Shown one piece after another: positions 4,331 through 25,633 of a stretch of 64,000 nt of DNA. The stretch is from assembly GCA_026129685.1 (NCBI GenBank), contig JAHCHO010000004.1, forward strand, positions 186,001-250,000, in the 5' to 3' direction. The notes beneath the pieces are model-generated. The model saw only the letters and a list, made by a program, of their open reading frames with translations, was not told the origin of the DNA and ran no database searches. Made by a program: the position numbers and the translations under genes. Origin of the DNA: Fimbriimonadaceae bacterium (GTDB taxonomy: Bacteria; Armatimonadota; Fimbriimonadia; Fimbriimonadales; Fimbriimonadaceae). How positions within the stretch are numbered: position 1 is the first letter of the stretch; each line of letters begins with the position of its first letter.

Positions 4331-4336
4331 GCCCCG

Positions 4337-4356
4337 ACTATACCACCGGGGGTATC
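4337..4356 (-). promoter_or_regulatory. csoR promoter -10 overlapped by CsoR operator
   Basis: Read on the minus strand, the operator GATACCCCCGGTGGTATA (4356-4339) overlaps the -10-like TATAGT (4342-4337), which is followed by six nt and then the csoR ATG. By standard spacing, transcription would begin at the A of the ATG, giving a leaderless mRNA. Bound CsoR would cover the -10 directly. No good -35 is seen. Confidence 0.7.
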
Positions 4357-4367
4357 GAGTCCTGGGA

Positions 4368-5267
4368 CTATCCGTACTCGGCGGCGAGGCCCGGGTAGGA
4401 ACGAAACTCCATCGCGCCATCCCGACAGACCCAGAGGGGAAACTCGCCGACGGAGGTGGCGGCGCCGAAGTCGCCGTCCGCGCGCAGGGCGAGGACGACG
4501 CAGGGCATCCAGGTGGAGCGCGGCTGGCGACGGATCATATGCCGAACGGTCTCCTCACAGGCGGCCTGGGCGTCGAGACCCCGCCGCATCGCTTCGACGG
4601 TGCGAAAGGAGGCGGCCGCCTTCCAGAGTTCCTCGCCCCAGCCGGTCGCCCCGGCGGCGCCGATCTCGTCGTCCGCGTACACCCCCGCCCCTACGATGGG
4701 GGAGTCACCGACGCGGCCGGGGGTTTTCCAGCCGAGACCGCTCGTGGCGGAGGCGGCGATCACGTGCCGGGGGGCTTCCCAACCGAGCATGGTGATCGTG
4801 TCGCCGTAGTGCTCCTCGAGCGAGTGGACATACTTGCGCTCGTACTTGGCGGGTTCGCGCTTCCAGTTTTCATAGGCTTCGATGGCCTGGGGGGTCATCA
4901 AGTTTTGGGGCGTAAAGCCTCTCTGGAGGGCGAACCGGCGCGCCTGCTCGCCCGCGAGCATCACGTGAGGCGTCTCCTCAAGGACCTTGCGAGCGACCGA
5001 GATGGCGGGCACGACGCCGCGAAGGGCGCAGACCGCGCCCGCGTTGAGGTCGGTGCCGTCCATGATGGCGGCGTCGAGTTCGATTTCGCCATCGCGGTTC
5101 GGCAGGGAACCGAGGCCAATGGCCATCAGGGTTGGGTCGAGTTCGGCGACGGCCAGTCCTTGCTCGAGGCAATCGAGCAACGAACCGCCCGTCGCGCGCT
5201 TGGCCCAGGCCGCCTCGATGGCGACCTTGCCGGGTTCCTTCCACGTGGCGAGGAGCGTGGTCGACAT
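4368..5267 (-). CDS. Isoaspartyl peptidase/L-asparaginase-type Ntn hydrolase (aspartylglucosaminidase-like)
   Basis: A 299-residue member of the T2 N-terminal-nucleophile amidohydrolases, which cleave beta-aspartyl or N-acetylglucosaminyl-asparagine bonds after self-processing. The processing site is HYGDTITML: Thr157 would be the new N-terminal nucleophile. The substrate-loop motif PGRVGDSPIVGAG (183-195) and the substrate-binding GATGWGE (205-211) follow. The N-terminal half keeps DAAIMDGTDLNAGAV, as in aspartylglucosaminidases. Start ATG 5267 overlaps the etfA stop (TGATG), so it is co-transcribed and probably translationally coupled with etfBA. No obvious signal peptide is seen, so a cytoplasmic enzyme is likely. 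The link to electron-transfer flavoprotein is not explained by known biochemistry. Confidence 0.85.
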   Translation of the reverse strand: MSTTLLATWKEPGKVAIEAAWAKRATGGSLLDCLEQGLAVAELDPTLMAIGLGSLPNRDGEIELDAAIMDGTDLNAGAVCALRGVVPAISVARKVLEETPHVMLAGEQARRFALQRGFTPQNLMTPQAIEAYENWKREPAKYERKYVHSLEEHYGDTITMLGWEAPRHVIAASATSGLGWKTPGRVGDSPIVGAGVYADDEIGAAGATGWGEELWKAAASFRTVEAMRRGLDAQAACEETVRHMIRRQPRSTWMPCVVLALRADGDFGAATSVGEFPLWVCRDGAMEFRSYPGLAAEYG

Positions 5268-6163
5268 CACTTGCCCAGGGCCTGCCGAATCTTGGGAATG
5301 GCGGTGAAGAGGTCTTCGACGAGGCCGAGGTCGGCGACCTCGAAGATGGGCGCGTCGGGGTCCGTGTTGATGGCGACGATAAGCTTGCTGTCCTTCATGC
5401 CGGCAAGGTGCTGGGTCGAACCGGATACCCCGGCGGCGACATAGAGATTGGGGGCCACGTTCTTGCCCGTCTGGCCGACCTGGGCCTCGTTGGGAGCGAT
5501 GCCCGAATCCACCGCCGCTCGGGTCGCGCCGACCGCTCCGCCGAGGGCATCGGCGAGGCCGCCGATGACGGACTCGAAGGTGGCGGCATCCTTGAGGGGG
5601 CGGCCGCCCGAAACGACCACCTTGGCCTGGGTTGGGTCGGGTCGCCCGCCCTTGCCGTGCGACGCCACCGAGACGCGGCGGGCTAGGCTTTCGACGTTGA
5701 GCGACACCGCTTCGACCAACGACGCGCCGCTCGTGGCGGCCGTGCCGAAAGCGGCGGGCCGGAAGGTGAGAAGGACGGGTTCGCCAAGGGTCTCGACGAC
5801 TTCGATGGCGGCGCCCGCGACCACGGGGCGCTTGTACACGGTCGGCGACTCGACGGCGATCACGTCGGTGACCATCGGGGCGTCCAAGTGGACGGCGAGG
5901 CGGGGAAGGACGTCCTTGCACCGCATCGAGGAGACCATCGCCACGTGGGAGTATTCGGCGCAGACGGGAACGAGGGCCTTGGCGAGGCCGTCGGCGGGAG
6001 GGGCTTCGGCGAGTCCGGCTAGGCAGACCCTCTCCGCGCCCGCGTCGGTCACCGGATCGCCGGTGAGTTGGAGGATGTCGAACGGGATGCCCAACGCTTC
6101 GGCCAAACGGGCGCCGCCTCGGGCATCGGCGGGATCGAACGCGATCAGAAGGAGACGGGCCAT
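5267..6163 (-). CDS. etfA: Electron transfer flavoprotein alpha subunit
   Basis: A 298-residue ETF alpha subunit; the ETF dimer carries FAD and AMP and passes electrons from acyl-CoA dehydrogenases to the quinone pool or, in bifurcating forms, to ferredoxin. The C-terminal FAD-binding domain is clear: VVSGGRPLKD, then GQTGKNVAPNLYVAAGVSGS, then QHLAGMKDSKLIVAINTDPDAPIF. The N-terminal domain keeps the fold (MARLLLIAFDPADARGGA). The start ATG at 6163 directly follows the etfB stop codon, and the end overlaps the next gene by one base. Order is fadN-like, etfB, etfA, asparaginase-like. Confidence 0.93.
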   Translation of the reverse strand: MARLLLIAFDPADARGGARLAEALGIPFDILQLTGDPVTDAGAERVCLAGLAEAPPADGLAKALVPVCAEYSHVAMVSSMRCKDVLPRLAVHLDAPMVTDVIAVESPTVYKRPVVAGAAIEVVETLGEPVLLTFRPAAFGTAATSGASLVEAVSLNVESLARRVSVASHGKGGRPDPTQAKVVVSGGRPLKDAATFESVIGGLADALGGAVGATRAAVDSGIAPNEAQVGQTGKNVAPNLYVAAGVSGSTQHLAGMKDSKLIVAINTDPDAPIFEVADLGLVEDLFTAIPKIRQALGK

Positions 6164-6901
6164 CTAGATCGCACCTCGCGCACGGAGTTCGGACACCAGT
6201 TCTTCGACGGAACCGACCTTCTTGCCGGGAGGGCGGGAGGGCGGCGTTTCGTAACGAAGCGGCCTCGTTTTCGGCAGGGCCGTCGTCGCGCGCGGACGCT
6301 TCTCCAGGGACTTCGTACGGGCCTTGATGATTCCGGGGAGAGCGATGTAGCGGGGTTCGTTCAGCCGCAGGTCGGTGGTCACGATGGCGGGCAAAGGGAT
6401 TTCCAGGGTCTCCTCGCCCGTGTCGGTCTCGCGGGCGACGGTGGCGGAGCCGTCCGAGACCGTGAGCTTGGAGGCAAAGGTGGCCTGGGGCCAGCCCAAG
6501 CGCGCCGCGAGCATCTGCGCGGCCTGGTTTCGGTCGTCGTCGGTCGCTTGTTTGCCCATAAGGATCAGGTCGGGCTTCAGTTCGCGGACGATCGCCTCGA
6601 GTTCAGCGGCGACGACCGAGGAGTCCTGGGGGTCGCCCGTCTCGACCAGGATCGCCCGGTCGGCCCCCATCGCAAGGGCCTTGCGGAGTTGGTCTTCACA
6701 TTCGCTCGGACCGACGCTCACCGCGACGATCTCCGTGTCGCCGCGGGCTTCGCGTTGTCGGACGGCCTCCTCGATCGCGATCTCATCGAAGGGATTGATC
6801 TCGAACTTGGCGCCCCCGGTGTCGATGCCGCTGCCATCGGGCATCGGGCGGACCCGGGCGTAGGGGTCCACGACTCGCTTGACGGTCACGAGGATTCTCA
6901 T
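6164..6901 (-). CDS. etfB: Electron transfer flavoprotein beta subunit
   Basis: A 245-residue ETF beta subunit starting MRILVTVKRVVDPYARVRP. It contains INPFDEIAIEEAVR, the signature VSVGPSECEDQLRKALAMGADRAILVE and LILMGKQATDDDRNQAAQMLA, which frame the AMP site in this family. It partners with EtfA, encoded immediately downstream. The ATG at 6901 is fixed by homology, with only 8 nt separating it from the preceding dehydrogenase/hydratase gene. No Shine-Dalgarno is evident. Nothing here distinguishes the classical from the bifurcating type with certainty. Confidence 0.93.
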   Translation of the reverse strand: MRILVTVKRVVDPYARVRPMPDGSGIDTGGAKFEINPFDEIAIEEAVRQREARGDTEIVAVSVGPSECEDQLRKALAMGADRAILVETGDPQDSSVVAAELEAIVRELKPDLILMGKQATDDDRNQAAQMLAARLGWPQATFASKLTVSDGSATVARETDTGEETLEIPLPAIVTTDLRLNEPRYIALPGIIKARTKSLEKRPRATTALPKTRPLRYETPPSRPPGKKVGSVEELVSELRARGAI

Positions 6902-6909
6902 GGGTCGGG

Positions 6910-9105
6910 TTAGTTGCGAAGGGGTTTGCCCGTCTCCACCATGTGGCGGACGCGGGCGACGGACAGGGCTCGTCCGCACAGCGACAGGAACTCGGCACGC
7001 TCGGCTTCCAGAGCGGTGGCGAACGAGGTGGACTTCACCAGGACGGCCTTGATCCGGTCGCCAATGTGTTCGTCGTGCTCGCTCATATCGCCGGCCTGAC
7101 GGTGCTTTTCCTGGCCCCGGTCGATCATTCCGACCACCATCGGAGGAACGAGCGCGTACGCGGGCTCGAGATTGGGGCCAACGGAGACGGCGAGGTTCTT
7201 GGCGGTGAAAAGCACCCGATCCGGGTGGTACTCGACGACGTCGGTCTCGCGGAGAAACCCTAGTTTGCGCGCCTCGTCCGCGTTGGTGGCGGTCGTGCCC
7301 ATCGAGAGTCTCACGGCCATCTCGGCAAGCGACTTGGCGTCGTGCTGAAGGCGCGCCCGCAAACGGGCAAGGCCCCCGCCGCTCGGCACCAGGCCGACCT
7401 TGGCCTCGGGCAGACCGATGGTGGACTCCGGCCCGGCCACGACCCTTGCGCAAGCGGTCGCCATTTCATAGCCACCACCCAGACAGAACCCCTGCACGGC
7501 GGCGACGACCCCACGGGCGGCGAGGTCCTCGCCGAGACGCTGGAATCGCACGAGGCCGGCGTCGAGGCGGGCCCAATCGGCAGCATCGATGCACTCGAGG
7601 ATGAACTTGAGGTCGAACCCGGCGGAGAAGTGCTTGCCCTCGCAGGTCAGCACAAGCGGTCCCCGGTGCCCGGCCTCGATCTCGGCGAGCATCGCATCCA
7701 CCAGGAAGGGAGAGAAGACCCCCATCTTGGTCGTGGTGGTGAGGGCCAGAACACCGTCACCAAGATCGCGGACGTTAAAGCCGTCGCACGCCTTGACGAT
7801 CGGGCATTGCTCGACGGTGACGTACTGTGGCTCGTTCGGGCGTTCGGTGTAAGAACCCGTAAACGTGCGCACTTCGGAGCCGCGAAAGAAGGACTCCGGC
7901 TCGATCCCCAGGTTCTCGGCGCCGATCGCGTCGATCGTGGCGAAGGGACCCATCTCCCAGCCGAAGCCCCATTGCATCACGCGGTCGAAGTCCAGGACGG
8001 AGTGCGAGACCTCGGCTTTGAGGTAGTCCGCGTAGCGAAGGACGGGGACCAGATGGTGGCGAAGGAACTCCCCGACCGGGTCTCGCAGTTCGAGGGCGGC
8101 GGCGATGCGCTCGGCGAGCGGCTTCCTACCCAACTCCTTGAGGGCCGGGAAGTCCGGTTCGCGGCGCTCGCGGTAGGCGTGGGTCACCAGATCGAGCGAT
8201 AGGAACTCCCGCCCCTCGCGACGATAGTATCCTTGCCCGGACTTCTCGCCGATCCAGCCTCGTTCGAGCAGGGTGGCCATCGAGCGCGGCGTGGCGAGGG
8301 CTTCGCGATGCGGATCGTCGGGGCATCGCTCGACGAGGTTGGCGGCAATGTCCCGCATGATGTCGAGGCCGACGATGTCGTTGAGGCGGAAGCTGGCGCT
8401 GCGCGGACGACCGAGAAAGGGACCGGTGATCGCGTCCACTTCTTCAATCGTAAGCTGGAGTTTTTCGGCGGTACGGACAGCGTGGAACATCGCCCACATC
8501 CCGAACCGGTTGGCGATGAACCCGGGGGTGTCTTTGGCGGGAACGACGCGGCGCGCGACCTTGTCCTCGAGGAACCGGGTCATGGCGGCGAGCGCCCCAG
8601 GGTCGGTATCGGGGGTGGGAATCAGCTCAAGGAGCTTCAGATACCGGGGCGGGTTGAAGAAGTGCGTGCCCAAGAAGCGGCGACGGAAGGACTCGCTTCG
8701 ACCCTCGGCAAGAAGGGCGATCTGAAGGCCGCTCGTGTTGGTCGACACCATCGCGTCGTCGCGAAGCAGCGGTTCGACTCGGTCGAACAGGGACCGCTTC
8801 GCTTCGAGGTTTTCGACGATCGCTTCGACCACCCAATCGGCCTGGGCGATCCAGCTCCGGTGGTCGTCCAGCGCGCCCGCTTCGATGCGGGCCGCGCTTT
8901 CGGGCACGTAGAAGTGGGGCGGCTTCCCGCGCTGGACGCGATCCAGGCCGGCAAAAGCGGCCTTCTCGGTGACGTCGAGGAGAGAGACGTGGAAACCAAG
9001 ATTGGCGAGGTGGGCGGCGATGCCGCTTCCCATTGTGCCGGCACCGATCACGCACACGCGCCGGGCATCCGGCCAGCGCTGAACCGCAACGTCGAGGCTT
9101 TCCAT
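6910..9105 (-). CDS. fadN: FadN-type 3-hydroxyacyl-CoA dehydrogenase/enoyl-CoA hydratase
   Basis: A 731-residue bifunctional beta-oxidation enzyme with the dehydrogenase first and the hydratase last, the Bacillus FadN order rather than the FadB order. The NAD-binding Rossmann motif VCVIGAGTMGSGIAAHLANLGF is at about residues 17-38 and the catalytic-His region is LGTHFFNPP. A PAKDTPGFIANRFGMWAMF segment and a GPFLGRPRSASFRLNDIVGLD segment follow. The C-terminal crotonase part has the oxyanion motifs GKHFSAGFDLKF and GFCLGGGYEMATAC and the acid region GLPEAKVGLVPSGGG. Start ATG 9105 is chosen because homology begins here; the longer frame runs through the intergenic region. It heads an operon with etfB-etfA. 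No thiolase or acyl-CoA dehydrogenase is adjacent. Confidence 0.9.
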   Translation of the reverse strand: MESLDVAVQRWPDARRVCVIGAGTMGSGIAAHLANLGFHVSLLDVTEKAAFAGLDRVQRGKPPHFYVPESAARIEAGALDDHRSWIAQADWVVEAIVENLEAKRSLFDRVEPLLRDDAMVSTNTSGLQIALLAEGRSESFRRRFLGTHFFNPPRYLKLLELIPTPDTDPGALAAMTRFLEDKVARRVVPAKDTPGFIANRFGMWAMFHAVRTAEKLQLTIEEVDAITGPFLGRPRSASFRLNDIVGLDIMRDIAANLVERCPDDPHREALATPRSMATLLERGWIGEKSGQGYYRREGREFLSLDLVTHAYRERREPDFPALKELGRKPLAERIAAALELRDPVGEFLRHHLVPVLRYADYLKAEVSHSVLDFDRVMQWGFGWEMGPFATIDAIGAENLGIEPESFFRGSEVRTFTGSYTERPNEPQYVTVEQCPIVKACDGFNVRDLGDGVLALTTTTKMGVFSPFLVDAMLAEIEAGHRGPLVLTCEGKHFSAGFDLKFILECIDAADWARLDAGLVRFQRLGEDLAARGVVAAVQGFCLGGGYEMATACARVVAGPESTIGLPEAKVGLVPSGGGLARLRARLQHDAKSLAEMAVRLSMGTTATNADEARKLGFLRETDVVEYHPDRVLFTAKNLAVSVGPNLEPAYALVPPMVVGMIDRGQEKHRQAGDMSEHDEHIGDRIKAVLVKSTSFATALEAERAEFLSLCGRALSVARVRHMVETGKPLRN

Positions 9106-15830: not shown

Positions 15831-16655
15831 TTACCCTTCCACGTCGAGGATACGACGCACGTGGGCTACGGCACGGCCGCACTCGTCGGGACCGGAGAGG
15901 TGCTCCAGGAGGAGCGGAGTGTCGTCGGGCAGGACCCGCATCGCGCGAACCATTGCACCCAGGTCCAACTCCCCGTCTCCTGGCGCCCGCTCGTCGATGT
16001 GGACGGTGAGGCGGGGACTCAGCGCAAGGTCCTTGAGGTGGACGCTCCTGACCCAGGGACCGAGGGTCTCGACGCAGCGCCGCGCGAAGGCAGCATGACC
16101 GAAGAACCGGGGTGGCGAGTGGATCATGTTCGCAACATCGAGGTGCACGGCGAAAGCCGGGCGTCCGACCGCATCGAGAAGCCTGAGGTACGACTCCGGC
16201 GAATCCGGAAAGATCCATGGCATCGTCTCCAGGGTGAAGAAGGTGCGCTTCGGTCGCACGGCGTCCACGATGTGGCGGACCTGCTCGACGATCAGGTCGA
16301 TGGTGTCTTCGTCGAGGTTGCGCACATCGGGCCCGTCCCACACGTCGCCACGGGACCCGGCGATGTTCACCGCGCAGCGCGCACCGAGGTCCTCGGCAAG
16401 CTCCAGACAGGCGACGCACCGATCCAAGGCGTCGCGCCTCGTCACCGGGTCCTCGGCGAGGGGATTGTTCCAGACGCCGACTTCGGCGACGACCCAGCGG
16501 TTCGTCTCGCAAAGACGAAGAAAAGCGGACCTCGTCTCGGCGGAGGTTTCGGGTCCGAACGGAGGGTTGACCGCCTCGTAACCAAACGCGAGGACTTCGC
16601 GCGCCCAGGCGTCCAGGTCGTCCGTCGGGCCAAAGGTGGGGCCGCCAAGTTTCAT
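15831..16655 (-). CDS. Sugar phosphate isomerase/epimerase-like TIM barrel
   Basis: A 274-residue AP-endonuclease-2/xylose-isomerase-like TIM barrel. Metal-ligand positions on successive strands are visible: Glu in FFTLETMPW, His and Asp in FAVHLDVANMI, His in RSVHLKDLAL and Glu in PLLLEHLSG. The family includes hydroxypyruvate, inosose and ketose isomerases/dehydratases; the exact substrate cannot be told. ATG 16655 overlaps the formate dehydrogenase stop by four nt (ATGA), so translation is probably coupled, and the PhyH gene follows after 10 nt. Isomerase-like plus PhyH pairs are common in sugar or polyol catabolic clusters of related bacteria, but the coupling to a formate dehydrogenase is unusual. 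Confidence 0.85.
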   Translation of the reverse strand: MKLGGPTFGPTDDLDAWAREVLAFGYEAVNPPFGPETSAETRSAFLRLCETNRWVVAEVGVWNNPLAEDPVTRRDALDRCVACLELAEDLGARCAVNIAGSRGDVWDGPDVRNLDEDTIDLIVEQVRHIVDAVRPKRTFFTLETMPWIFPDSPESYLRLLDAVGRPAFAVHLDVANMIHSPPRFFGHAAFARRCVETLGPWVRSVHLKDLALSPRLTVHIDERAPGDGELDLGAMVRAMRVLPDDTPLLLEHLSGPDECGRAVAHVRRILDVEG

Positions 16656-19306
16656 GCTTGCTCGAGCCGTACCGCGGTGACCTTGTACTCGGGGGTGCCG
16701 ACGGTTCGGTCGCGGACGGGGCTCGTCAGGTTGTTCAGGAAGACCTTGGGTGAATGGAAGGTCGCGAACAGCTCGCCGATGCGGACACCTCGGTCGAGCT
16801 GGACGGGGAGGGTCGCCTCGCCGTAGCGGCTGACCACGCGCACCCGGTCTCCGTTCGACAGTCCGAGTCGCTTTGCGTCGTCGGGATGGATTTCGAGGGT
16901 GTCGGTGGGCCGCAGTTCGTGATTGGGCGTGCGGTCGGTCATCGTCCCGGCGTTGAACTGGTAGAGGGTGCGGCCCGAATTCAGGAGGAAGGGGAAGTCG
17001 GGATCGACGGTCTCGGTGGTCGGGGTGTACTCGATCGGGCGCAGGGCCGCGCGAACCCCGATCGGGAACTTCTCGCGATGGAGGATGCGGGTGCCAGGGT
17101 GGTCTTCCGTCGGGCAGGGCCACTGGAGCCCGGCGACCTCCAGCCGGTCGTAGCTCATTCCGGCACCGGGGGTCCAGACCTGGCGGATCTCGTCCCAGAT
17201 CTCGCGAACCGATCCGAACGAAAAGCCCTCCCGATGCCCCATCGCCCGGGCGACGGACTGGACGATCTCCCAATCGCCCTTGCTCTCGCCGATCGGGTCG
17301 ATCGCTTTCCGCACGCGCTGGACGCGACGCTCGGCGTTCATGAAGGTCCCGTCCCGCTCGAACGAGGAGCAGGCGGGCAAGAAGACGTGGGCGAACTCGC
17401 GAGCCGTCTCGTTCAAGAACAGGTCTTGCACGACGACGAGGTCCAGCGCGGAGAGGCTAGCGCGGGTTGCGGCGGCGGTCGCCTGGGTGAGGTAGACGTC
17501 GTACCCGACGGCCCAGAGCGCCCGCAGTCGGCCTTCGCCGGCGGCCTGAAGCATCTGGACCATGTTAAGGCCCTTCGTCTGGGGGACGGGGGCGTTCCAG
17601 ACGACTTCGAAGCGCTCCCTTCCTTCCGACGGCGAGACGAACCCGGTCAGGTTGCTCGGCTCGCAACCCATATGGGCGGAGCCCTGCACGTTGTTCTGAC
17701 CACGAAGGGGGTTGATGCCGGCGCCCGGCTTGCCCAAATTGCCGGTCAAGAGCGCGAGGTTGACGAGCGCCATCACGCCTTCGGTGCCCTGTAGGTGTTC
17801 CGTCATCCCGAGGCCGTGGAACGCCATGAACGGTCCCGACGTCGCGTAGAGCCGGGCGGCCGCCCGGATGGTTTCCGGTTCCACGCCACAGACAAGTCCG
17901 GCGCGCTCGGGACTCCACGCTTGAACGAACGCGGCGAACGGCTCCAGCCCGTCCACTCTCTCCGCCAAGAACGAGCGGTCCGCGAGTCCCTCCGCGAGGA
18001 TCGTATGGGCCATCGCGTTCAGAAACGGGATGTTCGTGCCGGGGCGGAGGGGAACGTGCACATCGGCCATGCGCGCGAGCTCGGTCTTACGGGGGTCGAC
18101 GACGACCAGTTTCGCCCCCTCGCGCACGACCCGGAGGATGCGCGAGCCGATGACGGGGTGGTTCTCGGTGGGGTTGCAGCCGATCACCAAGACGCCGCGA
18201 GCGTCGGCGAGGTCCACGTAGGAGTTGGTGGCGGCGCCCGTGCCGATCATCGCTTTCATCGCGGCGGCGGTCGGGCCATGGCACACGCGGGCACAGCAGT
18301 CCACGTTGTTCGTCCCCAGCACGACCCGGGCGAACTTCTGGATCAGGTAGTTGTCCTCGTTGGTGGCGCGGGCGGAGCCGAGGACGCCGATGGCGTCCGG
18401 ACCGCTCTCGGTGAGAATGCGCTTCATCCCTTCGGCGACGCGCTCGATGGCTTCCGGCCAGGTGGCTTCCTCCAGACGGCCGTTTCGGCGAATAAGCGGT
18501 TTGCCAACCCGGTCTTCCGAGTGGACGAAGGCGTGAGCGTAGCGCCCCTTGACGCAGAGGTGGCCGTGGTTGACAAGGGCGTCCGGCACGGGCAGAATCT
18601 GATGCACCCGCCCCCCTTTGGTGCCGACGGAGAGCTCGCATCCAACCCCACAGTAGGGGCAGGTCGTGCGCGTCCAAGCATCCGGCCGACCCAATTCACG
18701 CGTCTTGTCGACGAGAGCGGCGGTCGGACAGGCGTCCACGCAGGCGCCGCAGCTCTTGCATCCGCTGGTCCGAAGCGAATCGCCGTCCGGAACGACGCGC
18801 GTTTCGGAACCGCGTTCCACGACCGTCCAGACGTGCGAGCCTTGGACCTCGTCGCAGACCCTTACGCACCGGAAGCACGCGATGCAGGCGGAAGGGTCGA
18901 ACCGAAAATACGGGTTGGTGGCGTCGGTTTCGCCCGGCCGGCCGGTCGGCTCGATGCCGTAGGCAAGCAACCATCGATGAAACGTCTTCTCCGGATAGGC
19001 CGCAACATACTCCCGTGGGTATCCGCGCGCGAGCATCGCGAGCGCGTCCCGGCGCATTTCGTGCAGGTCGGGGCGGTCCACCTCGACCTCCATGTCCGGC
19101 TGGACGCGCAGCGAACACGCAGAGGCCGGCTTGGGCTGGCCGGCGATGCCGACGAGGCAGAGGCGGCACGCGCCAAGCGGCGCGATCCGTGGATCGTCGC
19201 ACGCGGTTGGAACGTCGAGACCGATCGAGCGCAGGGCGGCCAGAACCGTCGTCCCATCCGGGACCTCGATTCGCCTTCCGTCTACCTTGACTGGAATCAC
19301 GCGCAT
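16652..19306 (-). CDS. Molybdopterin formate dehydrogenase, NAD/ferredoxin-type alpha subunit
   Basis: An 884-residue FdhA/FdhF-like catalytic subunit. From the N-terminus: a [2Fe-2S] domain (Cys36, 47, 50, 64), a His/Cys NuoG-like region, two [4Fe-4S] sites (Cys141/144/147/151 and 183/186/189/193) and the molybdopterin-domain cluster (Cys216/219/223/251). The Mo ligand is Cys342 in CCARVCHGPTAAA, with the catalytic His343; its codon is TGC, so it is not a selenoprotein. The C-terminal MopB domain (NSGRTLYQFNAGTMTDRTP; LFATFHSPKVFLNNLTSP) is complete. No diaphorase, FdhD or accessory subunit lies next to it, so the electron partner is unknown. It lies between fhs and an isomerase-like gene. 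A GGAGGG site directly precedes the ATG. Confidence 0.9.
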   Translation of the reverse strand: MRVIPVKVDGRRIEVPDGTTVLAALRSIGLDVPTACDDPRIAPLGACRLCLVGIAGQPKPASACSLRVQPDMEVEVDRPDLHEMRRDALAMLARGYPREYVAAYPEKTFHRWLLAYGIEPTGRPGETDATNPYFRFDPSACIACFRCVRVCDEVQGSHVWTVVERGSETRVVPDGDSLRTSGCKSCGACVDACPTAALVDKTRELGRPDAWTRTTCPYCGVGCELSVGTKGGRVHQILPVPDALVNHGHLCVKGRYAHAFVHSEDRVGKPLIRRNGRLEEATWPEAIERVAEGMKRILTESGPDAIGVLGSARATNEDNYLIQKFARVVLGTNNVDCCARVCHGPTAAAMKAMIGTGAATNSYVDLADARGVLVIGCNPTENHPVIGSRILRVVREGAKLVVVDPRKTELARMADVHVPLRPGTNIPFLNAMAHTILAEGLADRSFLAERVDGLEPFAAFVQAWSPERAGLVCGVEPETIRAAARLYATSGPFMAFHGLGMTEHLQGTEGVMALVNLALLTGNLGKPGAGINPLRGQNNVQGSAHMGCEPSNLTGFVSPSEGRERFEVVWNAPVPQTKGLNMVQMLQAAGEGRLRALWAVGYDVYLTQATAAATRASLSALDLVVVQDLFLNETAREFAHVFLPACSSFERDGTFMNAERRVQRVRKAIDPIGESKGDWEIVQSVARAMGHREGFSFGSVREIWDEIRQVWTPGAGMSYDRLEVAGLQWPCPTEDHPGTRILHREKFPIGVRAALRPIEYTPTTETVDPDFPFLLNSGRTLYQFNAGTMTDRTPNHELRPTDTLEIHPDDAKRLGLSNGDRVRVVSRYGEATLPVQLDRGVRIGELFATFHSPKVFLNNLTSPVRDRTVGTPEYKVTAVRLEQA

Positions 19307-19334
19307 CCCTCCGAATCCCCCTTTGCGGGGAGTT

Positions 19335-20963
19335 CTAGTTTAGACCTCGGATGGTCCCGTCGTCGTCCACGTCGATGCGCAGAGCGGCGGGGCTCTTGCC
19401 CAGCCCGGGCATCAGCATGATGTCGCCGCACACGGCGACGATGAAGCCCGCGCCGGCGGAAAGCCTGAACTCTCTGACGTGGAGGTCGAAGTCGCCGGGC
19501 GCGCCCTCGAAGCGAGGATCGTCGGACAGGCTCATCTGGGTCTTGGCGACGCAGACCGGGAGTTCGCCGTAGCCGTTGTCGTTCGCCCAGGCGAGATCGC
19601 GTTTGGCCGCCCGCGAGAGCGCGACCCCGCGTCCACCGTAGACCTTCTTTACCAGGAGTTCGAGCTTCGTTTCGATCGGGTCGGAGTTCTCGTAGATCGT
19701 CTGGAAGGGGGAGGGCTCGGCCGCGACCTCGTCCACGATGGCGGCGAGACCCTCGCATCCCGCGCCGCCACCGTGCCAGGGGTCACAGACGGTCGCGCGC
19801 ACATTGTGCGAACGAGCAAAGGCGCACACGGCCTCGATGTCCTCCTCGGTATCGTCGGCGAATCGGTTGATCGCGACGACCACGGGAGGGCCGTACGTCC
19901 TCAGGTGGCAGATGTGCTGACCAAGGTTGAGGAACCCCTTCGTAAGGTCTCCTCCGCCGTGGTACTTCAGGGCGCGTACGGTCGCGACGAGGACGATCGC
20001 GTTCGGCTGCGTCCCCAATTGTGGGCACACGATGTTGAGGAACTTCTCCCCGCCGAGATCGCTGCCGAAGCCACCCTCCGTGACCAGGTATTCCGACATC
20101 CCGAGTCCGCACTGGGTGGCGAGGATCGAAGAACAGCCGTGCGCCACGTTGCCGAAGGGGCCGCCATGGATGAGGGCGGGTCCGCCCTCGATGGTTTGGA
20201 CGAGATTCGGGCGGATCGCGTCTCGCAGGAGGGCGGCCATCGCGCCAACGACGCCGATCTCGCCGGCGGTGACGGGACGCGAGCCAGGCCCGACGCCGAC
20301 GATGATGCGGCCGAGCCGGTCCTTTAGGTCGCGCATGGAACGGGCCAGGCAGAGAATCGCCATCACCTCGCTGGCGGGGGTGATCACGTAACCGCTCGAA
20401 CGCGTCGGGCCGTTGCCGTCTCCGAGCCCCACGACGATCTCGCGAAGGCTGCGATCCAGCATGTCGATCGAGTGTGGCCACCAGATTTGGCGCATGTCCA
20501 GGCCGAGCGGATTGTCGGAGTGGAGCGAGTTGTCAAGCATCGCCGACAGCAGGTTGTGGGCCGAGGTGATGCAAGGGAAGTCCCCGTTGAAGAAGAGGTT
20601 GATCTCCTCCATCGGCAGCACCTGGCTGTACCCTCCGCCGCAAGCGCCTCCTTTGACGCCAAAAACCGGCCCAAGGGCCGGTTCGCGAAGGGCGGGCATC
20701 GCGCGCTTTCCGATGCGGTTTAGGCCCTGGGCGAGCCCGATGGAGACGGTCGTCTTGCCCTCCCCCGCCGGAGTCGGATTGACGGCGGTGACGAGAACGA
20801 GTTTGCCCCGGTCGCTCTTGGTGAGCCGCTCGACCGCCGGATAGGTCAGCTTGGCCTTGTGCCGGCCCAGGGTTTCAAAGTCGTCGGGACCCAAACCGGC
20901 CCGAACAGCGATCTGATCGACGGGGAGAACCGTGGCCTGCTGCGCAATATCCAGATTTGTCAT
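19335..20963 (-). CDS. fhs: Formate--tetrahydrofolate ligase
   Basis: A 542-residue cytoplasmic enzyme making 10-formyl-tetrahydrofolate from formate, tetrahydrofolate and ATP; near the usual 555 residues. The P-loop TPAGEGKTT is at residues 64-72. Family-specific blocks follow: REPALGPVFGVKGGACGGGYSQVLPMEEINLFFNGDF-type (20580-20700), ITPASEVMAILCLA, GGPFGNVAHGCSS, TEGGFGSDLGGEKF and DIMLMPGLGKSPAA near the end. Start ATG 20963 is where family similarity begins. It sits 28 nt upstream of the formate dehydrogenase gene on the same strand, which links formate production or consumption directly to the folate one-carbon pool. Other Wood-Ljungdahl methyl-branch genes are not in the window. Confidence 0.96.
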   Translation of the reverse strand: MTNLDIAQQATVLPVDQIAVRAGLGPDDFETLGRHKAKLTYPAVERLTKSDRGKLVLVTAVNPTPAGEGKTTVSIGLAQGLNRIGKRAMPALREPALGPVFGVKGGACGGGYSQVLPMEEINLFFNGDFPCITSAHNLLSAMLDNSLHSDNPLGLDMRQIWWPHSIDMLDRSLREIVVGLGDGNGPTRSSGYVITPASEVMAILCLARSMRDLKDRLGRIIVGVGPGSRPVTAGEIGVVGAMAALLRDAIRPNLVQTIEGGPALIHGGPFGNVAHGCSSILATQCGLGMSEYLVTEGGFGSDLGGEKFLNIVCPQLGTQPNAIVLVATVRALKYHGGGDLTKGFLNLGQHICHLRTYGPPVVVAINRFADDTEEDIEAVCAFARSHNVRATVCDPWHGGGAGCEGLAAIVDEVAAEPSPFQTIYENSDPIETKLELLVKKVYGGRGVALSRAAKRDLAWANDNGYGELPVCVAKTQMSLSDDPRFEGAPGDFDLHVREFRLSAGAGFIVAVCGDIMLMPGLGKSPAALRIDVDDDGTIRGLN

Positions 20964-21056
20964 GGGCGAACCCGCCGACCCATCGTTGGACCGGCCAATT
21001 CCTACTATTCGTTCTAGGTACCCGCGCTTTGGGCGCAAGGCACGGGACCAAAGGTC

Positions 21057-24017
21057 CTAGTCTGCTCGAACCTTGGTCGACGACCGGTGCCGGAGATAGC
21101 GCCCGAACCGGCGCGCGGCCTCGTCCGCGGAGTCGAACACGGGGACGCCGGCGGTTCGAACGGCCTCGCGAAGCGCGTCGAAGCGCGATCCAGAGTCGAC
21201 CACGAACACAACCGGCTTGGCGGTCTCGTTGCGCCATTCGCGGGCGAACCGCGCGAATGAACCTTCGTCTGACAGCTCCTCGGCGAGGGTGCTGAGCCTC
21301 GGGGCGAGCGGGACGCACGAGACGATCGCGCCGTGCACCTCGGGCCGGGCGAGCGCGGCCCGCAGGAGGGCTTCGTACGCTCGCTCGTCCGCCATCGGCG
21401 TCACGTCGAGCGGGTTTCGGGGGGCGACGAGCCCGCCGAGCCGATGCGCATCGAGGACGGTGCGCAGGGTCTCTTCGAGTTCCGCGCCGAGAGCGCGAAA
21501 GGAAGGCTCGGCGTCCGCCATGGCCACCGCTTCAAATCCCGCGTTCGTCAGGCCAAAGAGGTCGGTTCCGTCGACCCGACGATCGCCGAGAAAGGTCGCC
21601 AGTTCGAGCAGCTGCCCAAACTCGCGCGTCTCCTCGGCGACGAGGGCCCCCGCCTCGGTCAAGGCGGTCCGGCAGACATCGTAGTCCCCCGCGATCGCGG
21701 CGGTATGGCCGGACGCGGCGGATCGCCCCGATTCGGATCGCCCTCCTTTGTAGAACGCGACGGTTCGGCCCGTTTCGGTCAGCCGGGCGATCGCGCGCAG
21801 GGTTTCGAGGCCGTCCCAGTTCGCAAAGCCCTCCAAGTACACGCCGACCGCCCGCAGATCGTCGCGCTCGGCAAGGGTCCAGAGCAAGTCGGAGACGGTG
21901 ACGTCGGCTTGGTTGCCGATCGTGAAACTCGCCAGAGGCCGAAGGTGCCGCAGGCCGCTCAGGCGCGAGACGACGAAGGCGCCACTTTGCGATACCAGGG
22001 CGACCGGGTGGGGCGCGCCCGGTTCGACGGGCATTTTGTCGTCCGGGATGAAGAAGGTGTCGTACCGTCCCCAGGCCGATCGCACACCGAGGCAGTTCGG
22101 GCCAAGCAGCACCAGACCTTCGCCGCCCTCTCGGCCGGCTCGAACCGCTTCTCGGATGGCCTCACCGACGGGCACCGAGCCTGCGGTTTCGCCCGCACCT
22201 CCAGAGATTACGATGCAAGCCCGCACGGTTCCCTTGTCGTTGGCCTCCGCGACGATCTGGGGAACCGCCGAGGCCGGGGCGGCTATCACCAACAGATCGG
22301 TTCCCGCCGGCAGGTCGGACACGCGCGGCACGCACCGTACACCGTCGATCTCGGTGAGGCCGTCCTTGACGATGGTCAGGCTTTCGACCGGGTAACCGGC
22401 CTTCAGGGTGTTGCGCAACACCAGTCGGCCAAAGCCGTTCGGATCGCTGGAGACACCCACCATGGCGAGGGTCTCCGGCGCGAGGAGGCAACGGACCTGG
22501 CGGCGCGGGCGCGGGGGTTCGGCGCGCGCGGCGGTGCGGAGGCATCCTCGTCCGTCGAGCGGAACCATGCGGTCGTTCCGGAAGGCGAATGGGTTGACCT
22601 CGAGTTCGCCGATGTCCGGCCCCTCTTCGCCGCGATCCACACAGAACCACTTGGCGATCGAGATGAACGCTCGAAAGCACCGTAGGAGTTCGGCATCGGA
22701 CACTCGGCGGCGATGGCCGCGCGCCTTGCCCGACAGAACGTCGTACGCCACCGTCTGCCGGAACATGGCCAGGAAGCGCTCGGCGTCGAGGTCCATCGCG
22801 GGCGCCTTGGCGACGGCGACGTCGCGCGCAAGCTTCGACGAGAGGTACTCGGTGTCGAGTCCGCCCAACCCGGCGGCCACCACGGGTCCGAACTCCCTGG
22901 TCGATCGGATGCCGACGAAGAGCTCCGAGCCAAGTCCCTGAAACGCGTGCTCGACGAACTCGACGACGAGGACGCCCGCCACTTGGACATCGTCCGCGTG
23001 ACGGGAGACCAAGCGGTCGATCTCGAGGTTCACCTGTTCGAGCGACTTCGAGACGAAGACGACCGCGCCCGCGTCGCTTTTGTGGACCACGTTCGGAGAG
23101 ACGAGCTTGCAGACGACGCGCTCACCGGGGAAACCCGCGAGCGACTCGGCCGAGACCGCCGATCCCTTGGGCACGAAGACGTGGCGAGGAGGCGAGATCG
23201 CGCCCACCAACTCGATCAGACGGTAGACCTCGTGCTCGTAGAGCTGGCGGCGACCTTCGTGGTAGGCGTCCAGCAACACGCTTTCGAAGGCATGGGCCTC
23301 GGCCCCGGAGAGCCTCGCCTCGGGCGCGCTCGAAACACCCGCCAAGTCGAGGGGCTCGTCCGATTCGAGGTGAGCGGGGGATAGGGTTTCGATCCAACCC
23401 CGAGCGGCCGAGGGGGGAATCCCGCGCAGCATCGCCTCCGCGTAGGCCGAGGCGGCGGCACGCCCGAAGCGGAACCCGCGCACGTTGGCCTCGACCACCC
23501 GTTCTCCCTTGGCCGCAAAGCAGTCGGCGATCTCGCGCTCGAGATCGTCGGCCGGCACGGGAAGGTATCCGGCGGCGGCGCCAAGCGCGACCATGTTGGA
23601 CGCGAGCGGGTTGCCCGCCGCCCGCCCAAGGTTTTCCATGTCCAGGCAGACGTGGTTCGTACGCCGACAAAGACGCTCTAGGACGCGCTCGATGGCGGGA
23701 TAGGACTGGATGTTGGCGACGGCGTTCGTGCTCGCCACGATCGCGCCCTCCTCGCGGAGCATCGGCTCGTAACGGAGCGCCTCGAGGGGTTCCACGGCGA
23801 GGATCAGGTCGGCCTGGCCCTTTGGAATGAGGTCGCTGTGAATCTCCTCGTCGGACAGCCGAAGGTGCGAGTTCACCGCGCCGCCTCGCTGGGACATCCC
23901 GTGAACCTCGGCCTGCTTGACGTTCCAGCCGTTGGCGATCGCGGCGCCGGACACAATGCGCGCGATGGTGAGAATGCCCTGGCCCCCGACGCCGGCAAGA
24001 ACGATATCGTATCGCAT
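21057..24017 (-). CDS. Fusion: indolepyruvate oxidoreductase beta subunit + ADP-forming acyl-CoA synthetase (beta and alpha parts)
   Basis: A 986-residue fusion in one unbroken frame. Residues 1 to about 195 are an IorB-like gamma/beta domain of 2-oxoacid:ferredoxin oxidoreductases (MRYDIVLAGVGGQGILT; GMSQRGGAVNSHLRL; NMVALGAAAGYLPVP). Residues about 245-490 are an ATP-grasp domain of the acyl-CoA synthetase beta type (VVCKLVSPNVVHKSDAGAVVF; FVGIRSTREFGPVVAAGLGG; ELEVNPFAF). Residues about 510-986 are the alpha part: CoA-binding Rossmann domain (LAMVGVSSDPNGFGRLVLRN), LLGPNCLGV, VALVSQSGAF and the phosphohistidine loop GRSAASGHTAAIAGD (His771). IorB makes an arylacetyl-CoA with IorA; the synthetase half would convert the thioester to acid plus ATP. 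The preceding gene, 17 nt away, is iorA. Confidence 0.88.
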   Translation of the reverse strand: MRYDIVLAGVGGQGILTIARIVSGAAIANGWNVKQAEVHGMSQRGGAVNSHLRLSDEEIHSDLIPKGQADLILAVEPLEALRYEPMLREEGAIVASTNAVANIQSYPAIERVLERLCRRTNHVCLDMENLGRAAGNPLASNMVALGAAAGYLPVPADDLEREIADCFAAKGERVVEANVRGFRFGRAAASAYAEAMLRGIPPSAARGWIETLSPAHLESDEPLDLAGVSSAPEARLSGAEAHAFESVLLDAYHEGRRQLYEHEVYRLIELVGAISPPRHVFVPKGSAVSAESLAGFPGERVVCKLVSPNVVHKSDAGAVVFVSKSLEQVNLEIDRLVSRHADDVQVAGVLVVEFVEHAFQGLGSELFVGIRSTREFGPVVAAGLGGLDTEYLSSKLARDVAVAKAPAMDLDAERFLAMFRQTVAYDVLSGKARGHRRRVSDAELLRCFRAFISIAKWFCVDRGEEGPDIGELEVNPFAFRNDRMVPLDGRGCLRTAARAEPPRPRRQVRCLLAPETLAMVGVSSDPNGFGRLVLRNTLKAGYPVESLTIVKDGLTEIDGVRCVPRVSDLPAGTDLLVIAAPASAVPQIVAEANDKGTVRACIVISGGAGETAGSVPVGEAIREAVRAGREGGEGLVLLGPNCLGVRSAWGRYDTFFIPDDKMPVEPGAPHPVALVSQSGAFVVSRLSGLRHLRPLASFTIGNQADVTVSDLLWTLAERDDLRAVGVYLEGFANWDGLETLRAIARLTETGRTVAFYKGGRSESGRSAASGHTAAIAGDYDVCRTALTEAGALVAEETREFGQLLELATFLGDRRVDGTDLFGLTNAGFEAVAMADAEPSFRALGAELEETLRTVLDAHRLGGLVAPRNPLDVTPMADERAYEALLRAALARPEVHGAIVSCVPLAPRLSTLAEELSDEGSFARFAREWRNETAKPVVFVVDSGSRFDALREAVRTAGVPVFDSADEAARRFGRYLRHRSSTKVRAD

Positions 24018-24034
24018 AGTTCGGTTGGGACTCC

Positions 24035-25633
24035 TTACGTTCCGCTTTGCGGAAGAGGCGTGGCGCGCGTCCCGAGTTTGATGCGAACGCACGCCCTCTT
24101 GGCGACGAGCACGCTCGGGCCGGGACGCTCGATCGCCTCGCGAATGAGGCGGACGCTGTCGGCGTGATGTTTGGGCAACGGGTCGAACACGGTTAGGTCG
24201 GTGACTCCCAGGCCGCGCAACATCTGCAGCAAGACCTCGCCCGTCGCGTGGGAGTCTTGAGCGCCCGTCATCGCCGTGGTGCCGTTGTCGAGGATCAGCA
24301 CGGTGACGTTTGCGTTCGAATGGACCACGTCGAGCAGAGCGGGCATTCCGGAGTGAGCGAACGTCGAATCGCCGATCGTGCAGAGCACCGGGTGAGCCCC
24401 CGCCCGGGAGGCGCCGTGCGCGAGCCCGATCGAGGCCCCCATGTCCACACAGGCGTGGATGGCGCGGTAGGGCGGCATGATCCCGAGCGCGTAGCATCCG
24501 ATGTCGCCGAAGATCAGCGCATCCGGATAGGGGGCGGTGGCGTCCACGAGCGCACCAAAGGACGACCCGTGCGGGCAACCTTTGCAGAATTGCGGAGGGC
24601 GCCCCGCGACCATCGGGTCGGTAGGTGTCGCTTCCAACGGGATGCCCAACGCCCGGAAAACGGCCTCGGGCAGCAGTTCTCCGTCCATCGGGAGGCTGCC
24701 GTCGAGCTTTCCACGGACGGTTTTTCCGGGAACCCCAAGCAACCCGAGCAGGCGCGTCTCGATGAAGGGGAAGCCCTCTTCCACCACCAGAATCTCGTTG
24801 CAGCGATCGACGAACTCGCGGATCAGGCGAACCGGTAGGGGGTATGCGCCGATGTGGAGCGTGGTGTCGCCCGATCTTCCGGCAAGAGCCTCGCGGACGT
24901 AGTTCGTCGCGATGCCTGCGCTGAGGATGCCCCGCCGCCCCGACGCCAGGTAGCGGTTCGCCGGCGACGCCTCGAGTTCGTCTTGAAGGTCCCTCTGGAT
25001 GTCGAGCAGGTGCCGGTACCGTCGGCGGGCGTTCGCGGGCACGAGCGTCCAATCGTTTGGGTCGGGGCGAGACGGGTTCGGCTCGCCCGGCCCACGGTCC
25101 TCCGGGGGGACACGGACCACGTTGGCGCGGCTGTGTGCGACTCTCGTCACGAGTCGCACCATGACGGGGATGCGGTGCGCCTCGGAGAACCCGAACGCCT
25201 CCCGCGTCATGTCGTAGCACTGTTGCTGGTTCGCGGGTTCGAAGCAGGGAATCCGGGCGAAGTCGGCGTAGAACCGCGAATCCTGCTCGTTCTGGGAGGA
25301 ATGCATGCCAGGGTCGTCGGCGACGACCAGAACCAATCCGCCGTTAGCCCCGGTGAGGGCGCTGCTCATGAAGGGGTCGGCGGCCACGTTGAGGCCGACG
25401 TGCTTCATCGAGACCAGCGCGCGTCGGCCGGTGTAGGAGACGCCGAGGGCTTCCTCATAGGCGACCTTTTCGTTCGCGCTCCACACGGCCCAGACGCCGC
25501 CTTCCGCCTGCACCGTCTCGAATACCTCGGTGGCGGGGGTCCCGGCATAGGAGAAGGCGCCGACGATCCCCGCGTCGAGCGCGCCGAACGCGACCGCCTC
25601 CGCGCCCAACAGCAACGTTGATGTCGAGGGCAT
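24035..25633 (-). CDS. iorA: Indolepyruvate:ferredoxin oxidoreductase alpha subunit, lacking ferredoxin domain
   Basis: A 532-residue IorA-like thiamine-diphosphate subunit. The N-terminal pyrimidine-binding part begins LLLGAEAVAFGALDAGIVGAFSYAGTPATE and has VSMKHVGLNVAADPFM. The C-terminal TPP domain has PPQFCKGCPHGSSF, FGDIGCYALG, the TPP/Mg motif GDSTFAHSGMPALLDVV and LDNGTTAMTGAQ. Typical IorA proteins continue with a C-terminal 2x[4Fe-4S] ferredoxin domain and exceed 600 residues; here the chain stops just after PSVLVAKRACVRIKLG, so that electron-exit domain is missing. With the downstream IorB fusion it should oxidise aryl (indole-, phenyl- or 4-hydroxyphenyl-) pyruvates. Start ATG 25633 is set by homology. 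TACAAC is present five nt upstream. Confidence 0.9.
   Translation of the reverse strand: MPSTSTLLLGAEAVAFGALDAGIVGAFSYAGTPATEVFETVQAEGGVWAVWSANEKVAYEEALGVSYTGRRALVSMKHVGLNVAADPFMSSALTGANGGLVLVVADDPGMHSSQNEQDSRFYADFARIPCFEPANQQQCYDMTREAFGFSEAHRIPVMVRLVTRVAHSRANVVRVPPEDRGPGEPNPSRPDPNDWTLVPANARRRYRHLLDIQRDLQDELEASPANRYLASGRRGILSAGIATNYVREALAGRSGDTTLHIGAYPLPVRLIREFVDRCNEILVVEEGFPFIETRLLGLLGVPGKTVRGKLDGSLPMDGELLPEAVFRALGIPLEATPTDPMVAGRPPQFCKGCPHGSSFGALVDATAPYPDALIFGDIGCYALGIMPPYRAIHACVDMGASIGLAHGASRAGAHPVLCTIGDSTFAHSGMPALLDVVHSNANVTVLILDNGTTAMTGAQDSHATGEVLLQMLRGLGVTDLTVFDPLPKHHADSVRLIREAIERPGPSVLVAKRACVRIKLGTRATPLPQSGT

Follow-up and report, generated by a model that had tools for sequence, protein, structure and literature searches.

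An IorB–ADP-forming acyl-CoA synthetase fusion paired with a ferredoxin-domain-less IorA in Fimbriimonadaceae and Phycisphaerae

Introduction

Indolepyruvate:ferredoxin oxidoreductases (IOR) and ADP-forming acyl-CoA synthetases (ACD) are both known enzymes. Characterised IORs take arylpyruvates, and a C. difficile ligase encoded beside such an oxidoreductase relative uses phenylacetate, hydroxyphenylacetate and indoleacetate (PMC13285125). More generally, clostridial IOR/VOR genes often lie near genes for a phosphate acyltransferase and kinase or for an ADP-forming ligase (PMC13285125). In the Peptostreptococcales clusters with such a ligase, the same two activities that concern us here are closely encoded, but as separate proteins, and no fusion has been reported (PMC13285125).

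Besides these clusters, three described systems are closest to the locus presented here. IorAB of Pyrococcus and methanogens (TIGR03336 / TIGR03334) shares with it the POR_N and TPP domains of IorA, an adjacent IorB with a POR domain, and the proximal-cluster cysteines; in contrast to classical IorAB, our IorA has no C-terminal ferredoxin domain, and our IorB bears a synthetase. The two-subunit StOFOR of Sulfolobus (PMC5020499) shares the single [4Fe-4S] cluster, the absence of an internal ferredoxin domain and an edge-placed, IorB-like domain III, which in a docking model holds the external ferredoxin (PMC5020499). StOFOR uses an external ferredoxin, a trait that the present enzyme would presumably share; it differs in that domain III is joined to the catalytic alpha chain, not to a synthetase, and in its substrates, pyruvate and 2-oxoglutarate. 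Finally, ckcACD1 (4xyl-4ybz) and the Nitrosopumilus enzymes 9y43 (3HP-CoA) and 8wzu (4HB-CoA) share the ATP-grasp, CoA-binding and ligase domains and both catalytic histidines, and 9y43 has its parts in the same beta-then-alpha order as our protein, but none of these synthetases carries an oxidoreductase subunit.

A published description of a covalent IorB-ACD fusion was not found in the literature searched, which mostly excluded subscription journals. The activities and their genetic linkage are already known, and the new part is the covalent join, together with its pairing with an IorA lacking the ferredoxin domain.

Results and Discussion

The fusion gene and its domains

In the window, a stretch of 64,000 nucleotides, the fusion is encoded by one intact frame of 986 codons on the minus strand, a strand that the sequence-only reading had left unspecified. 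The frame runs from an ATG at 24017 to a stop at 21057 with zero internal stops; the plus strand across 21057-24017 is interrupted by stops. The features are as follows.

21057..24017, minus strand: iorB-acd fusion gene, 986 aa (domain searches and homologue alignment)
23439..24017, minus strand: IorB part (POR gamma / domain III), residues 1-193 (Pfam POR 11-186; NF005324)
23268..23438, minus strand: interdomain linker, residues 194-250 (structure model; omega)
22548..23267, minus strand: ATP-grasp (synthetase beta) part, residues 251-490, with K304, His312, E353, N475 and D488 (Pfam ATP-grasp_5)
22080..22472, minus strand: CoA-binding domain, residues 516-646 (Pfam CoA_binding_2)
21603..22010, minus strand: succinyl-CoA-ligase-like domain with the phosphohistidine swinging loop, residues 670-805, with E729 and His771 (Pfam Succ_CoA_lig)
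21060..21602, minus strand: C-terminal synthetase domain (subdomain 5), residues 806-986, with the motif NAGFE at 825-829 (TIGR02717, 510-976)
24018..24034, minus strand: intergenic gap of 17 nt between iorA and iorB-acd (gene ends)
24035..25633, minus strand: iorA, 532 aa, of the type without a C-terminal ferredoxin domain, with cysteines C350, C353, C380 and C515 (TIGR03336, 3-535 of 595)

All four Pfam domains scored well over the cut-off, with low E-values (POR 7e-34, ATP-grasp_5 2e-25, CoA_binding_2 3e-16, Succ_CoA_lig 2e-30). The IorB part passes the IOR-beta equivalog NF005324 of NCBIfam (248.6 bits, cut-off 222), and the NCBIfam ACD models are colinear along residues 258-974, although the acetate--CoA ligase equivalogs are not reached by this half (TIGR02717, 202 vs 567 bits; NF045494, 190 vs 1200). 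The sequence-only reading, which had proposed one frame combining IorB with a complete ADP-forming synthetase in the order IorB, synthetase beta, synthetase alpha, is therefore confirmed by Pfam, NCBIfam, the exact coordinates and the domain order. It had also described the two activities as normally separate proteins, which holds, and as known in Archaea, which is too narrow, as they are encoded close together in Peptostreptococcales (PMC13285125) and in the Spirochaetota operons described below.

In the structure model of the fusion (pLDDT 82, pTM 0.78), linker residues from about 221 to 240 have low confidence, and how the IorB and synthetase parts sit relative to each other cannot be read from it. 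Foldseek matched the synthetase part with the ADP-forming 3HP-CoA synthetase 9y43 (TMt 0.82) and with ckcACD1 (alpha 0.86-0.88, beta 0.82), and the IorB part with OorC (TMt 0.82). The gene is present once, with no second copy, in its source genome (3.94 Mb in 18 contigs, 99% complete).

Conservation and selection

The same four-domain architecture, in a single frame and at 49-61% identity, was recovered from at least 30 genomes of Fimbriimonadaceae (Armatimonadota) and Phycisphaerae (Planctomycetota), which answers the search for homologues of the same domain order that had been proposed from the sequence; all four domains were found in each of 18 aligned homologues. Within an Armatimonadota sample of 291 genomes, the fusion was confined to Fimbriimonadaceae, with eight full-length copies and two cut at contig ends, whereas the class of the Phycisphaerae records (298 genomes) yielded 20 full-length fusions and two cut in the same way, and a wider Planctomycetota sample added two more. 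At the thresholds used, the fusion was absent from 247 Spirochaetota genomes and from 297 sampled in the phylum to which a Desulfobulbaceae record belongs.

Three close pairs gave an omega of 0.02-0.18 for either enzyme half and of 0-0.32 for the linker; therefore, both halves are maintained by purifying selection. The gene is not in decay, in agreement with the earlier judgement that decay was unlikely. The linker can be aligned along its whole length, yet it is among the least conserved regions of the fusion.

Active sites

The residues K304, His312, E353, E473, N475, D488, E729 and G770-H771-T772 are invariant in all 18 aligned fusions, as is the IorB core, in line with the earlier observation of intact active-site signatures in both parts. 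His771 aligns with the swinging-loop H256 and His312 with the ATP-grasp H535 of Nmar_0206, the 4HB-CoA synthetase of Nitrosopumilus, and these two histidines are the phosphate carriers of its published mechanism (PMC11494057). The pocket is different: at the tip of the active-site helix, this synthetase subfamily has NAG[F/Y/M]E, whereas canonical members, including the ordinary Armatimonadota ones compared, have NAGGPG, and a further altered pocket motif is NPLDLTPMA. NAG[F/Y/M]E may signal a different acyl group. As a marker of IOR linkage the motif was ruled out, since a standalone Desulfobacterota synthetase with no iorAB in its locus also has it.

The partner IorA and the gene neighbourhood

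The iorA gene, with a likely start at the ATG at 25633, ends at 24035, which places it 17 nt upstream of the fusion exactly as had been read from the sequence. We compared 20 IorAs of the partner type: 18 are encoded next to a fusion, and the other two come from Spirochaetota, where the loci are unfused. POR_N and TPP_enzyme_C, the pyrimidine- and pyrophosphate-binding TPP domains, are found in every one of them, and the domain search detected a Fer4 family in none, the chains stopping no more than some tens of residues past the aligned core; the sequence-only reading had not noted this absence. The cluster cysteines C350, C353, C380 and C515 are invariant throughout, and C350 and C353 fit CxGC, a known proximal-cluster motif (PMC5020499). 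By these features, the partner IorA is predicted to be of a single-cluster type, a non-canonical IOR subunit, and because it has no C-terminal ferredoxin domain, an external ferredoxin or another acceptor would have to dock directly. A few Phycisphaerae IorAs (L007, L009, L010 and L014) have short cysteine-rich C-terminal tails, e.g., CTPACECTPLTV.

The iorA gene precedes the fusion in every locus for which the sequence read extends far enough, and no other conserved neighbour was found across the loci compared; the pair iorA and iorB-acd therefore behaves as a two-gene cassette. In the window, fhs (formate--THF ligase) and fdhA (formate dehydrogenase) follow closely downstream on the same strand (16652-21038). 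A functional operon of the four genes is unsupported, as fhs and fdhA pair up on their own in relatives (L156, L157, L159 and L160) and are missing beside other fusion copies.

Origin of the fusion

A tree of the synthetases places the fused proteins in one group of 39 rows (SH-aLRT 98). Fimbriimonadaceae fusions form one clade (99) nested among those of Phycisphaerae (95), which indicates horizontal transfer, and outside the fused group lie the planctomycete G581, in which iorAB and acd are separate, a Desulfobulbaceae synthetase and the Spirochaetota operons. The IorA tree is concordant on the unfused outgroups. The trees, which are quick builds with some long branches and in which IorB alone is too short to order the branches, give a single origin with horizontal spread; we suggest one fusion event, probably in Phycisphaerae, and later transfer to Fimbriimonadaceae. 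A candidate archaeal origin was ruled out, because the record concerned (JADZEW010000022.1, titled Methanoregulaceae archaeon) is mislabelled: it is the same contig as one of Fimbriimonadaceae (G013:C22), of equal length and with the gene at identical coordinates.

Unfused iorA-iorB-acd genes are adjacent in several Spirochaetota genomes (L133-L136), and in two of them (L133 and L134) the iorB and acd frames overlap, which looks like a pre-fusion state. In three planctomycete genomes (L140, L146 and L143), the synthetase stands alone with no iorAB adjacent, and in L143 it is divided between two frames. Two synthetase-only planctomycete members, L140 and L020 (the same gene as L146), are nested within the fused group and have, to judge from this position, lost the IorB part. 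Another arrangement was observed at 4335-7088 of locus L061 of genome G038, which belongs to the same taxonomic order as the window but to a different family; in this locus, an IorA with a ferredoxin tail and IorB apparently form one long frame directly downstream of acd; the same three parts appear to be arranged differently there.

A proposed two-step enzyme and its alternatives

We propose, with a probability of about 0.6, that iorA and iorB-acd encode one two-step enzyme leading from a 2-oxoacid, most likely an arylpyruvate, through acyl-CoA to ATP. The direct basis is the fusion, its intact domains and residues, the constant pairing with iorA and the loss of the ferredoxin domain; the substrate, the direction of the reaction, ferredoxin as acceptor and a benefit of proximity are what we infer. 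IorA, with TPP and one [4Fe-4S] cluster, would act with the IorB domain in the oxidative decarboxylation of the 2-oxoacid, passing the acyl group to CoA, and electrons would leave the single IorA cluster for an external ferredoxin (2-oxoacid + CoA + oxidised ferredoxin -> acyl-CoA + CO2 + reduced ferredoxin). The attached synthetase would then accept the acyl-CoA and move the acyl group onto phosphate via His771, and the swinging loop would bring the phosphate to His312 and then to ADP (acyl-CoA + ADP + Pi -> acid + ATP + CoA), with CoA free for the next turn. Hung on domain III, beside the CoA site, the synthetase would lie near the thioester exit. That making the thioester is coupled to making ATP, as suggested in the sequence-only reading, is plausible. 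By analogy with characterised IORs and the C. difficile ligase, aryl substrates are likely, and the catabolic, ATP-forming direction would be the simplest reading. Nevertheless, ACD reactions are reversible, which counts against a fixed direction. A two-fold symmetric IorA2(IorB-ACD)2, in which acyl-CoA is handed over without release and CoA is regenerated in place, is a more specific proposal that we consider rather unlikely.

One alternative is that the two enzymes are independent and acyl-CoA diffuses freely, so that the join merely sets stoichiometry and co-expression. This is quite conceivable, if somewhat doubtful. It is favoured by the weak conservation of the linker and by the ACD-only derivatives that survive within the fused clade; the latter indicate that the synthetase can be retained without IorB, which also counts against the two-step enzyme. 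Against this alternative, the fusion has been kept in at least 30 divergent species. What it addresses is the advantage of joining, and it and the two-step enzyme may both be true.

It is also possible, though we think it unlikely, that the same two-step chemistry is applied to a branched-chain or other 2-oxoacid. A shift in substrate class is conceivable, as IorA reaches only 499.4 bits against the IOR_alpha model (cut-off 650.9), and the acyl group of the synthetase may differ, as NAG[F/Y/M]E, found here together with NPLDLTPMA, is non-canonical. Both points count against the arylpyruvate proposal; nevertheless, IOR models are the best match for both IorA and IorB, and IorB exceeds its equivalog cut-off.

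The main rival, which we take to be unlikely but serious, is a reverse, anabolic role, in which the synthetase would spend ATP on activating environmental aryl (or branched) acids and the IOR half would reductively carboxylate them to 2-oxoacids for amino-acid synthesis or salvage. The methanogen IOR has been proposed to run in this way, and so may that of Bacteroides, which has an AMP-forming ligase as its neighbour (PMC13285125); an AMP-forming PaaK-type ligase follows iorA-iorB in one Spirochaetota locus (L137) and occurs together with acd in another locus (L026). However, the ligase of the fusion is ADP-forming, a type usually tied to breakdown, and reductive carboxylation requires strongly reduced ferredoxin. 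Moreover, prephenate dehydratase is present in six of the seven holders tested, including the source genome; these should thus make phenylalanine, for which salvage would be unneeded. The seventh, a chromosome-level genome (G292, CP070827.1), has no prephenate dehydratase match and could rely on the reverse reaction for phenylalanine.

Misassembly or a read-through joining two genes is ruled out, even if the holder genomes are largely MAGs: the same join, at 49-61% identity, occurs in many independent assemblies, including the chromosome-level CP070827.1, purifying selection extends through the linker, and at least 30 genomes read through residues 195-245, where a stop or frameshift had been a concern.

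Implications

Annotation models that name proteins from one end would call the fusion IorB and conceal its ATP-forming half. To our knowledge, Phycisphaerae and Fimbriimonadaceae are not generally regarded as amino-acid fermenters. The join predicts that both halves use the same acyl group, which would leave fewer candidate substrates to consider for a large, unstudied subfamily of synthetases, and it makes the fusion a test case for channelling between 2-oxoacid oxidation and ATP formation. If it exists, IorA2(IorB-ACD)2 would be a self-contained oxidative-decarboxylation-to-ATP enzyme, with ATP made on the very chain that helps to form the thioester.
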